Source: a virus
Strand: one strand, 5' to 3'
IMG/VR virus record: IMGVR_UViG_3300026367_000102
Location: 1 to 36,899 of that record
DNA: 36,899 nt
The translations under genes were made by a program, and so were the position numbers. The notes beneath the pieces are model-generated. The model was not told the DNA's origin. It was given only the letters and a program-made list of their open reading frames with translations, and ran no database searches. This document shows, piece after piece, positions 1,168-15,646 of this stretch (positions are counted from its first letter, which is position 1; the number at the start of each line of letters is the position of its first letter).

Positions 1168-1258
1168 GTCGTTGATTTTTTGTTAGATGACATTGTTTGC
1201 AAAAAAGCAAAGATTGTGAGACAAACAAAGATAAATAGAGACAAATAGTACATTTAAA

Positions 1259-1291
1259 TTGCATATGATTTGCAACTAAAATATAGTTGCA
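1259..1291 (+). promoter_or_regulatory. Promoter and overlapping operator of the hicAB-chaperone cassette
   Basis: A -35 TTGCAT (1259-1264), a 17-bp spacer and a -10 TATAGT (1282-1287) lie upstream of hicA. A perfect inverted repeat, TGCAACTA (1271-1278) and TAGTTGCA (1284-1291) with a 5-bp spacer, covers the -10. A second, shorter dyad TTGCA/TGCAA (1259-1275) covers the -35. This is the expected layout for autorepression by an RHH antitoxin. That HicB is the binder is inferred. Confidence 0.65.
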
Positions 1292-1317
1292 CTCACAAAA
1301 AGGAAGTAGAACTTGCT

Positions 1318-1569
1318 ATGGGGAAGCATGATAAGACGAGAGAACAGATAAACCAGAAGCCAACATCTTCAAAGCTTAAATGGACAAGTTTTAGAAACTA
1401 TATGTTATCGCTAGGGTTTATAGAGATTCAAGGGAATGGGTCAAGAGTGAAGTTTTTTAATAAAGAAAGGGATGCGCTTGCTCACTTCCATCGGCCGCAT
1501 CCAGAACCAGAAATGGATAAAGCAGCCGTTGATGATGCTAGAGAGTTTTTAATAGCGCATGGCTTGTAA
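1318..1569 (+). CDS. hicA: HicA-family mRNA interferase toxin
   Basis: Small (83 residues) dsRBD-fold toxin of the HicA family, which cleaves mRNA and blocks translation unless bound by HicB. Visible family features are KWTSFRNYMLSLGF, the G-x-GSRVKF strand pair and the FHRPHP motif that carries the candidate catalytic histidines, followed by the C-terminal helix AVDDAREFLIAHGL. The GSR in place of GSH occurs in this longer HicA subtype, so I do not regard it as inactive. ATG at 1318 is preferred over an in-frame upstream TTG because AGGAAG lies at 1300-1305 and the predicted -10 is at 1282. It is the first gene of a three-gene cassette. Confidence 0.88.
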   Translation: MGKHDKTREQINQKPTSSKLKWTSFRNYMLSLGFIEIQGNGSRVKFFNKERDALAHFHRPHPEPEMDKAAVDDAREFLIAHGL

Positions 1570-1584
1570 TAAAAGGAGTATCAA

Positions 1585-2076
1585 ATGTCCAATAAATTAC
1601 TAAATTACAGAGATTATTTTGGTAGTGCAAAATTTAGTCTGGATGATGGCATTTTACACGGAAAGATAGAGTTCATTAATGACTTAGTGACTTATCAATC
1701 TGACTCTATACCAGCGTTGGAAAAATCATTTCATGAAGCTGTAGATGATTATATAGAAACTTGCGCAACATTAGGTCGTGAGCCTCAGAAGTCAATGTCT
1801 GGTTCCTTCAATGTTAGAGTTGGTGGGGAAATACATAAGAAAATTGCAGTAAAAGCTTTGCAAGAAGGCGTTTCTCTTAATGACTATGTGAAGAGTGCTC
1901 TAGAAAAAAGTGTGCATAGTGAGGAGAAAGAGACTCACCACCATGTTCATTATCATAATGCTACTGATTCAGAAGTTCATAAAACTGTTTCAATAACAAG
2001 AGATGTTGCTCATTGGGAACAGAGAGGTAATAAAGACTTTTCGCCATTTATGCCAGCATTAAGAGTGGTAAACTAA
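1585..2076 (+). CDS. hicB: HicB-family antitoxin with RHH domain and long C-terminal tail
   Basis: Antitoxin partner of the preceding HicA. Residues 1-65 are the partial RNase H-like HicB domain (FSLDDGILHGKIEFINDLVTYQS, FHEAVDDYIETC). Residues 73-110 form a ribbon-helix-helix DNA-binding domain (GSFNVRV, EIHKKIAVKALQEG, SLNDYVKSALEKSV). In many homologues the protein ends here. This one continues for about 53 residues, with a His-rich stretch (HHHVHYH) and an aromatic end (W144, F152, F155, M156). The next gene is a SecB-like chaperone, so this tail is a candidate chaperone-addiction segment. RBS AAAAGGAG precedes the ATG. Confidence 0.88.
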   Translation: MSNKLLNYRDYFGSAKFSLDDGILHGKIEFINDLVTYQSDSIPALEKSFHEAVDDYIETCATLGREPQKSMSGSFNVRVGGEIHKKIAVKALQEGVSLNDYVKSALEKSVHSEEKETHHHVHYHNATDSEVHKTVSITRDVAHWEQRGNKDFSPFMPALRVVN

Positions 2077-2495
2077 TGAGTATGATTGAAAATGTAAGGT
2101 ACCTAGGAATTGAAATTAAAAAATCTAGCTTTGAACGATTTGAGGTTGCATCTGAAGGTGGAACTTATGGACTTGAAGCAACCACAGCTACTGTAGTTAT
2201 TCATTCTGCAGAAGAAGGTAGTGATGAAAGTGTTACTTTTTTTTCAATACCAGTAAATTCAAAAGTTTGGGGTGAAGATAAGCAAACAAAAGAAAAAGTT
2301 TTTGTTTGCGACGCTTATTTTGAAGTAGATTTTGCCCTTGAAGAAAGAGATGAACTAGCTGAAGATGCTATTGCTAGTATGCTTAATTCAAATGAGTGGT
2401 ATTTTAGAAACTTTGTTGCTATATCTGTAAAAACTGCGCTTGAGTCTGTATTGAAAAACACCTCGTTCAGTAGTCTCGAAATACCATTGAAATAG
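2076..2495 (+). CDS. SecB-like chaperone of a toxin-antitoxin-chaperone (TAC) cassette
   Basis: A 139-residue acidic protein with a SecB-like architecture: N-terminal beta strands (NVRYLGIEIKKSSFERFEV), a long strand pair, then VFVCDAYFEVDF resembling the SecB strand before its helices, and a C-terminal part NEWYFRNFVAISVKTALESVLKNTSF-SLEIPL matching the SecB pattern in which a Pf/Rf motif precedes the last helix and a short L-x-P end. Its start overlaps the hicB stop (TAATG), so translation is coupled. Known TAC systems (M. tuberculosis HigBA with Rv1957) use SecB-like chaperones to protect an unstable antitoxin. The assignment is by pattern and context, not by a search. Confidence 0.68.
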   Translation: MSMIENVRYLGIEIKKSSFERFEVASEGGTYGLEATTATVVIHSAEEGSDESVTFFSIPVNSKVWGEDKQTKEKVFVCDAYFEVDFALEERDELAEDAIASMLNSNEWYFRNFVAISVKTALESVLKNTSFSSLEIPLK

Positions 2496-2520
2496 AAAAG
2501 ACTTAGCGTTTACGTTGATA

Positions 2521-2547
2521 AAAAAACCGCCCAAATGGCGGTTTTTT
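2521..2547 (+). terminator. Rho-independent terminator after the TAC cassette
   Basis: CCGCC (2527-2531), loop CAAAT, GGCGG (2537-2541), followed by a T run, with an A run on the 5' side that extends the stem. It separates the hicAB-chaperone cassette from the membrane-protein pair. The A run may make it work in both directions. Confidence 0.85.
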
Positions 2548-2608
2548 TATGGCTAATTTTTGTTACTTGGGTATGTTGTAGAAAGTCATTTATCTTGGAA
2601 GTGTATGC

Positions 2609-3247
2609 ATGGAAAAAAAATCAGTATTAGGTGATATGTCAGAGGGATTGTTAAGGCAAAGGCGAAATTTGATATCGGTGTCGTGTATCTTGATTTTTTT
2701 GAAGTTCGCTGGTGTTGAGATCAGCAAGTTAAGTTTTCTGGGTATCGATTTTGGGGGGATGAAAAATCCATCAGCTCTATATTTTGGGGTCTGGATCGTG
2801 TTCTTCTATTTTTTGTTTCGCTATTATCAATATTTTAAGCAGGATGGAGAGAGTAGATTAATCTCATTCTATAAGTTTGAGCTTTCAGAGCGAGTGTATA
2901 AAAGAACCAGAGCTATATCAAAAAAGGATACTAGATACGGTGTTTGGAGCGATAATGGGTTATCTGACTCGTTTCAGTCATTGAAGAAAAATGATTGGCG
3001 TTTTTACCCTCTTTACAGTCAGGATGGGAGTGCTTTTAAGGCCGAGCCTGTAGAGAAAAAGTTTGGTCTCTTAGAGCGTATAAAGTGTAGGTGTAGTACG
3101 TCAATATTTTTGATTCTTAATACAAGTGCAATAACTGATTACATCTTGCCTTTTGTACTTGCAATTCTAACACTAGCTTATTGTTTTTATGGCTCAAATT
3201 CCAGTTTGTTTGAATCTATATCTCACAGTTTTGGAGCTGCTTCATGA
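2609..3247 (+). CDS. Unknown membrane protein, first of an overlapping pair
   Basis: A 212-residue protein I cannot assign to a named family. Hydrophobic stretches at about residues 19-38 (NLISVSCILIFLKFAGV), 57-74 (LYFGVWIVFFYFLF) and 166-192 (IFLILNTSAITDYILPFVLAILTLAY) look like membrane segments. Between the second and third lies a charged, probably cytoplasmic domain of about 90 residues. Start chosen for GGAA at 2597-2600. It overlaps the next gene by 4 bp (ATGA), so the two are probably co-translated and may act as a complex. It lies in AT-rich cargo between two terminators, typical of an accessory (moron) gene. A role in phage exclusion is possible but only a guess from position. Confidence 0.8.
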   Translation: MEKKSVLGDMSEGLLRQRRNLISVSCILIFLKFAGVEISKLSFLGIDFGGMKNPSALYFGVWIVFFYFLFRYYQYFKQDGESRLISFYKFELSERVYKRTRAISKKDTRYGVWSDNGLSDSFQSLKKNDWRFYPLYSQDGSAFKAEPVEKKFGLLERIKCRCSTSIFLILNTSAITDYILPFVLAILTLAYCFYGSNSSLFESISHSFGAAS

Positions 3248-3981
3248 GTAATGGAAAATACCAGGCACTACTTGGTCTGGTTTTAGCTGTGTTGGTCGGT
3301 ATATTTATTGGCTTTGCTATTATTGATCAGGGCGGGCTACTTACTTTGATGGGTGATGAGAATAGCTTGCTTTTAAAGTGTTTTACGGTGGCGGTTGGTG
3401 GTTTTATCGGCGCATACTCTGCATTTTGGTTAAAGAGCTATGAAGAGAATAATAAAGTAAAAAATAAAGAGATAGCTGCTTTAAACTCTGCGATCTTCTT
3501 ATTAGTTCGCCAAAGAAATACAATTCGGATATTAAAGAAGCATCTAGACCAGTATAAAACAGATGTGGACAGAGGTTTCAACTTACCAGCTATGACTCCA
3601 CCTGATTACTTTGGGGTAAGGCAAAATATAGAAAAATTAGAGTTTTTATTTAAAAATAATCCACAAATGCTTTTTGATTTATCTATTGAGCAAGAAAGGT
3701 TTGAGCAAGCGATGGCGGCGGTAAGTATTCGAAATAGCTTTTATGTTGATGAAATACTAACAGCAATTAGTAAGCTTCGCATGAATGGTAAGCTTGAGAC
3801 GTTAACCGGTTTAGAAAGTAAATTAGGGGAGCGGTTATACAAAGGAGCAATATTTCACGCTCAATACATGTATGAACATGTTTATAAAGCCGAAGTGACT
3901 TTAGAGCAGACTTGCGATAAATTGCATGAAGTGGCTAAGGATATGTATCCAGAAGAAAAGTTTATAGCGTGGGTTTCGTGA
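3244..3981 (+). CDS. Unknown membrane-anchored coiled-coil protein, second of the pair
   Basis: A 245-residue protein. Two N-terminal membrane segments are visible at about residues 7-28 (ALLGLVLAVLVGIFIGFAII) and 42-64 (LLLKCFTVAVGGFIGAYSAFWL), followed by about 180 soluble, mostly helical and charged residues (NNKVKNKEIAALNSAIFLL onward). Both termini are probably cytoplasmic. It has no recognised catalytic motif. The 4-bp overlap with the upstream membrane gene and the terminator directly after its stop mark a two-gene unit. Base composition is AT-rich compared with the structural genes, which fits separate acquisition. Confidence 0.8.
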   Translation: MSNGKYQALLGLVLAVLVGIFIGFAIIDQGGLLTLMGDENSLLLKCFTVAVGGFIGAYSAFWLKSYEENNKVKNKEIAALNSAIFLLVRQRNTIRILKKHLDQYKTDVDRGFNLPAMTPPDYFGVRQNIEKLEFLFKNNPQMLFDLSIEQERFEQAMAAVSIRNSFYVDEILTAISKLRMNGKLETLTGLESKLGERLYKGAIFHAQYMYEHVYKAEVTLEQTCDKLHEVAKDMYPEEKFIAWVS

Positions 3982-3984
3982 GAC

Positions 3985-4016
3985 ACAAAAAAAGCCGCGT
4001 AATTGTGGCTTTTTTG
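3985..4016. terminator. Bidirectional terminator between cargo and leftward operon
   Basis: An A run, GCCGC (3994-3998), loop GTAATT, GTGGC (4005-4009) and a T run form a stem with one G-T pair. It has a T tract on either strand, so it can end both the + strand membrane-protein pair and the leftward operon that finishes at 4036. Confidence 0.8.
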
Positions 4017-15145: not shown

Positions 15146-15646
15146 ATGATGAAGATATGGTGTGTTTTTTGTCTATTTGTGTCGTTGTTGCTGGCGGGTA
15201 ATGCGCTTGCGGACGGGGCGAAATACAAACGAAGTGAGTTTGGTAGCGGCTGGGCAGATATTGACCGAGATTGTCAGAACACACGACAAGAGCTTCTTAT
15301 TTCATTATCAACAGCACCTGTTCGTTTTAATACCGACAAGCAGTGCCGTGTAGTCTTTGGTCGTTGGATTTCTATGTATTCCGGTGAAGTAATATTTGAT
15401 GCGTCAAAGATAGACATAGACCACATAGTGCCACTGAAATGGGCATGGGATCATGGCGCGGATAAATGGAGCAAGGAAAAGCGAAAACAGTTTGCTAACG
15501 ACCCAATAAACCTCGTCGCCGTCGAAGCCAGGTTAAACAGACAAAAAGGTGCAAAAGGCTTAGATGAATGGCTACCGCCTAAAAATCAAGAACAGTACAA
15601 AGCGCGGTTTAAAAGAATATTAGTGAGATATGGAATGAAGGAATGA
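15146..15646 (+). CDS. Secreted HNH/GmrSD-C-like nuclease
   Basis: A 166-residue protein with a Sec signal peptide: a short basic start, a hydrophobic core WCVFCLFVSLLLAG and a cleavage site ALA-DG after A22. The mature part matches the DUF1524 / secreted HNH family: EFGSGWADIDRDCQNTRQELL, then C67 (paired with C43), the beta-beta-alpha metal motif DIDHIVPL with D92-H93, AND-x-INL (N122) and LNRQKG (N131), and the WLPP signature. It should act in the periplasm or outside the cell on DNA. It is expressed apart from structural genes, behind the palindromic element, and is probably an accessory gene of the lysogen. Confidence 0.88.
   Translation: MMKIWCVFCLFVSLLLAGNALADGAKYKRSEFGSGWADIDRDCQNTRQELLISLSTAPVRFNTDKQCRVVFGRWISMYSGEVIFDASKIDIDHIVPLKWAWDHGADKWSKEKRKQFANDPINLVAVEARLNRQKGAKGLDEWLPPKNQEQYKARFKRILVRYGMKE

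Follow-up and report, generated by a model that had tools for sequence, protein, structure and literature searches.

A probable HicAB-type toxin-antitoxin-chaperone operon with a predicted SecB-fold chaperone in a P2-like temperate phage

Introduction

Does a HicAB pair carried by a temperate phage depend on a chaperone encoded by the gene directly behind it and, if so, what would such an arrangement do for the phage? This question is raised by three genes, hicA, hicB and a third gene here called hicC, that lie head to tail between an integrase gene and a terminator (coding region 1318-2495) in a 36,899-base virus record (IMG/VR IMGVR_UViG_3300026367_000102), referred to below at its full length as the window. 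A preliminary description of this DNA had proposed a toxin-antitoxin-chaperone (TAC) cassette on a P2-like phage, with the HicB antitoxin made dependent on a SecB-like protein by a C-terminal tail and with titration of host SecB as one way of releasing the toxin. Here, we examine the individual proteins, the association of tail and chaperone gene across phage loci, the regulatory sites and the genomic context of the operon.

Results

Organization of the operon and its toxin

The operon has the following parts:

1318-1569, plus strand: hicA, toxin, 83 aa (PF07927, phrog_8887)
1585-2076, plus strand: hicB, antitoxin, 163 aa (PF05534, phrog_9151)
1918-2073, plus strand: HicB C-terminal tail, residues 112-163, predicted ChAD segment (from the tail/chaperone association)
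2076-2495, plus strand: hicC, predicted SecB-fold chaperone, 139 aa (AlphaFold2 model; homologue of the coliphage "HicC chaperone")
2518-2550, plus strand: intrinsic terminator closing the operon, a 14-pair stem with a T run

The third gene starts within the hicB stop codon with a one-base overlap (taATG), in agreement with the three coupled genes of the preliminary description; an alternative hicC start codon is present at 2082 (ATG). A PADLOC scan returned neither a chaperone match nor a HicB match in the operon.

The match of the first gene product to Pfam HicA_toxin (PF07927) is marginal, with 26.7 bits where the cut-off is 27 (E 6e-6), while its match to the PHROG "toxin" family phrog_8887 is clear (E 3.4e-24). 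The protein carries an HRPHP motif that includes H58 and H61, and has GSRVKF where some other HicA proteins have GSH. The absence of the GSH histidine and the score below the Pfam cut-off could indicate that the module has decayed and lost its activity. However, all three reading frames are intact and are accompanied by an operator and a terminator, and the relatives compared share the GSG/GSR form while the H.PHP residues are invariant among them (G41, S42, F46, H58, P60, H61 and P62 are invariant across seven relatives). We therefore regard decay as highly improbable.

HicB has a C-terminal tail that two-gene relatives lack

The second protein belongs to the HicB family, matching Pfam HicB (PF05534) over residues 56-106 (nt 1750-1902) with 75.1 bits, above the cut-off of 21 (E 3.9e-21), and phrog_9151 with E 5e-43. 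Because HicB relatives that lack a chaperone gene have a length of 108-119 aa, the 163-aa protein encoded here has about 52 additional residues, close to the 53 or so that had been proposed. This C-terminal extension, which is absent from the two-gene relatives, contains KETHHH as well as the aromatic residues W144, F152 and F155 to which the preliminary description had drawn attention.

HicC is predicted to have a SecB fold

By sequence, searches with HicC gave no match to SecB in Pfam or among PDB sequences, whether with the single protein or with a profile, and there was no match to the SecB family profile PF02556 at E<=10. Similarly, hhalign against a small set of SecB proteins gave a probability of only 1.7%, and the path through intermediates gave 49% from the HicC family to a group of third-gene products represented by L063 and 62% from that group to SecB. 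The third-gene products of L063, L071 and L072, which fall outside the HicC profile, look closer to classical SecB by eye and have an FPYLRN stretch.

The case for a SecB-like protein thus rests on the fold. An AlphaFold2 model made with 35 relatives (pLDDT 89.7, pTM 0.82) has four main strands and then two helices and, in a structure search of the PDB with this model, all 19 matches at E<=0.001 were SecB or Rv1957. The best match was 5mtw (E 5e-5), i.e. M. tuberculosis Rv1957 with the antitoxin ChAD peptide. For this predicted monomer, the TM-scores are moderate at 0.46-0.62 by query length and up to 0.65 by target length, with E. coli SecB reaching up to 0.65. A fold from the single sequence (pLDDT 50) gave meaningless structure matches and was set aside. 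Because the TM-scores are moderate and the profile-profile result is weak, the model supports a SecB fold for HicC but not membership of the SecB sequence family; accordingly, the earlier description of the third protein as SecB-like holds for its fold but not for its sequence and, because HicC does not reach the PF02556 cut-off, we refer to it as SecB-fold or SecB-like rather than as SecB. The failure of PF02556 is no argument against a TAC system because established TAC chaperones likewise differ strongly from one another, with only 17% identity between those of M. tuberculosis and Methylomonas methanica (PMC5105189).

A profile built from ten HicC members recruited many more phage relatives. 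Scans with the protein alone found no relatives in viral and genome contigs, and a scan of genome contigs with the alignment found none either; the set used for comparison is therefore mainly one of phage contigs. A search of the open-access literature gave no paper describing a phage HicC.

A long HicB tail goes together with a SecB-sized downstream gene

To compare tails and downstream genes, we collapsed 80 HicB loci from viral contigs to 51 non-redundant loci, counting a HicB of at least 135 aa as long and a frame of 120-180 aa that begins at the hicB stop as a downstream SecB-sized gene. Such a gene is present in 35 of the 42 loci with a long HicB and in 0 of the 9 with a short one (Fisher p 3.8e-6); one open reading frame beside a short HicB (L094) was left out by eye as spurious, and p is 8e-5 if it is counted. 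Six or seven tailed HicB loci are exceptions without a SecB-sized neighbor: L083, one of the seven, has a SecB-like frame whose start codon was missed by the script. Such a coupling is expected if the tail is a chaperone-addiction segment.

An alternative reading is a two-gene HicAB system in which the tail is only a spacer or a DNA-binding extra, while the downstream SecB-fold gene is unrelated and serves the phage itself, e.g. in the folding of virion proteins. SecB-like proteins are indeed found among other phage proteins, and the tail sequences differ widely from locus to locus. We nevertheless consider an unrelated SecB-fold gene very unlikely because a chaperone-sized gene is found beside most tailed HicB proteins and beside none of the tail-less ones, the one-base overlap between hicB and the third gene recurs among loci, and the terminator comes after the third gene. 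In loci with a HicC-family gene, 23/26 HicB tails contain a tryptophan, most often as residue eleven counted from the C-terminus, and 18/26 have an E.H.H-type motif; in these loci, tryptophan and histidine are rare in the body of HicB.

A conserved palindrome precedes the operon

Two regulatory features lie upstream of hicA:

1253-1282, plus strand: promoter-like hexamers TTTAAA (1253-1258) and TAAAAT (1277-1282), separated by 18 nt (consensus match)
1271-1291, no strand assigned: palindromic operator TGCAACTA-AAATA-TAGTTGCA, predicted site of HicB autoregulation (palindrome, conservation)

The promoter call is weak on its own because it is a consensus match only, with two matches compared to an average of 4.4 among shuffled sequences; its -10 hexamer falls within the conserved operator. 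The perfect palindrome TGCAACTA-AAATA-TAGTTGCA is present once in the window and in none of 100 shuffles. Its core, GCAACT-N-AGTTGC, is found 5' of hicB in 31/48 non-redundant loci, at a distance of about 280-330 nt upstream of hicB in all of them but one, and does not occur in 82 kb of downstream background. Coliphage mEp234 has it too, as do gut-phage HicAB loci of the two-gene type. GCAACT-N-AGTTGC is most simply explained as the predicted HicB operator. The element is common to proteobacterial- and gut-phage HicAB loci, with or without a chaperone gene (e.g. L006:1681-1700).

The operon lies in an exchangeable cargo site

The gene content of the window, with genes for the gpA replication protein and for portal, terminase, scaffold, major head protein (capsid) and tail sheath, bears out the assignment to a P2-like phage, and we conclude from these genes and the integrase gene at the left end of the window that the phage is P2-like and temperate. 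Next to the integrase gene is a region of distinct composition:

1168-4010, no strand assigned: integrase-proximal cargo region with hicABC and two more genes (GC content; relatives L108 and L109)

The GC content of this region is 36.1% compared to 46.2% in the rest of the window. In the nearest relative of the phage (L108, integrase 93% identical), the equivalent site (1603-2977) lacks hicABC and has a HigB-like toxin together with a 360-aa, antitoxin-like protein with HTH plus Peptidase_M78, while a second relative (L109, integrase 76% identical) has almost nothing there. Because the cargo differs or is missing in these relatives, we infer that this is a cargo spot and that modules of the TA type replace one another there.

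The two further genes in the spot, 2609-3247 and 3244-3981, overlap. Their products, with two hydrophobic segments and with one at its start, respectively, had no confident match in Pfam, PHROG, NCBIfam or PADLOC; the first has one relative with 28% identity, encoded on a Pseudoalteromonas plasmid. The pair may form another module for defence or exclusion. Elsewhere in the window, a gene for a GmrSD C-terminal/HNH nuclease-like protein (15146-15646; Pfam E 1e-14) is flanked by the replication genes and the portal gene.

Discussion

Based on the data reported here, the best explanation for the operon, with a probability of about 0.87, is that it is a TAC system whose TA pair is HicAB and which forms part of the exchangeable cargo of a P2-like temperate phage. 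In favor of this reading are the predicted SecB fold, for which Rv1957-ChAD is the best structural match, the association of tail and chaperone gene, the shared motifs in the tails of the HicC family, the conservation of the operator, and the existence of a proven HicAB-type TAC (PMC5105189). Points against it are the moderate TM-scores of a monomer model, the lack of a chaperone or HicB match in PADLOC and the tailed HicB loci that have no SecB-sized neighbor. In that system, Mmet-TAC of Methylomonas methanica MC09, a HicAB pair is likewise combined with a SecB-like chaperone; HicB is about 159 aa with the ChAD at residues 119-159, the need for the chaperone has been shown experimentally, and residues 119-159 transfer this need to another antitoxin (PMC5105189). 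Mmet-TAC differs from the operon described here in belonging to a cellular genome as cited, and its likeness to our operon is based on the published description.

The closest counterparts in gene order are found in the lambdoid coliphages mEp234, mEp506 and HK106 (PV340542, PV340539, JQ182732). They have hicA, hicB and a "HicC chaperone" gene, annotated as such in the mEp234 and mEp506 records, and share with the window the one-base hicB/hicC overlap and a long, tryptophan-containing HicB tail; in mEp234, the operator is identical in its core to that of the window. However, HicC is only 29% and HicB (residues 3-120) 49% identical to the proteins described here, the phages are of a different type, and the lambdoid module adjoins cI whereas that of the window adjoins the integrase gene. 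M. tuberculosis HigB1-HigA1-Rv1957 (5mtw; PMC6377645) similarly combines an antitoxin tail with a SecB-fold chaperone, but is a HigBA rather than a HicAB system, with about 15% identity and with tail motifs that are unlike beyond a tryptophan. Thus, with the Methylomonas system proven and the lambdoid phages annotated, a HicAB-type TAC is already known and the operon is less novel than the preliminary description implied. Our data add a divergent HicABC member in a P2-like phage, to which the HicAB-type TAC is now extended, and fold evidence where profiles fail. They also indicate that the module, whose chaperone has diverged beyond the reach of SecB profiles, is found again in many contigs of temperate phages, and that the tail/chaperone rule across these contigs together with the conserved operator can serve as simple markers for finding such modules.

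In the model that we suggest, operator-bound HicB would repress the operon, and HicC would hold the HicB tail, allowing HicB to fold and to escape proteolysis. HicB chaperoned in this way would neutralize HicA, an RNase. If HicC were drawn away or missing, HicB would be lost and free HicA would stop translation. As expected for a growth-arrest switch of this known kind, HicB probably works only with its chaperone. By contrast, host SecB titration, the trigger that had been envisaged, is unlikely; E. coli SecB, even when overexpressed, has no effect on Mmet-TAC (PMC5105189) and the operon encodes its own chaperone, both of which argue against host SecB as the hub.

In a lysogen, competition for HicC by a virion protein of another phage could set off abortive defence by the module; alternatively, the module could serve addiction and so maintain the prophage. 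E. coli CmdTAC, MqsRAC and HigBAC (PMC11618068, PMC9519451, PMC12593503) follow the same TAC logic with unrelated toxins and antitoxins. The CmdTAC chaperone has been shown to sense a phage capsid protein (PMC11618068), MqsRAC restricts T2 (PMC9519451), and HigBAC restricts phage with a chaperone that is reported to sense the tail protein lambda gpV (Mets et al. 2024, as cited in PMC12593503). By analogy with these three systems, phage sensing by HicABC, and with it a role in phage defence, is plausible. If this is correct, HicA would join HigB, MqsR and CmdT among the toxins of phage-restricting TAC systems. It is also possible, although we do not favor it, that the TAC is kept mainly for prophage maintenance or in a stress response and has no anti-phage role: the operon adjoins the integrase gene of a temperate phage, and a prophage HicAB has been shown to stabilize a plasmid (review PMC11594946). 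On the other hand, CmdTAC, MqsRAC and HigBAC all restrict phages, and the integrase-adjacent site holds exchangeable cargo. It is likewise possible, if less likely than not, that the HicB tail and HicC together make up a chaperone-addiction code of their own that is traded among phages, consisting in most members of E-x-H-x-H and of a tryptophan some ten residues before the C-terminus, with HicC sensing incoming virion proteins and thereby giving rise to HicA-based abortive defence between phages.

In five contigs (L066, L077 (=L119), L079 (=L118), L120 and L121:2462-2725), the gene behind a tailed HicB is not SecB-sized and instead encodes one of a set of homologous proteins of 86-109 aa with the motif ..LLVKHYGLNEGLYDLAVEF..GAVGP..PGVMLGV..IGL... 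These proteins had no Pfam match in the two members scanned and no plasmid relative. The late tryptophan is present in four of the five HicB tails ahead of them, L079 having none, and the 86-109-aa protein may be a second, non-SecB partner of a chaperone-dependent HicB.
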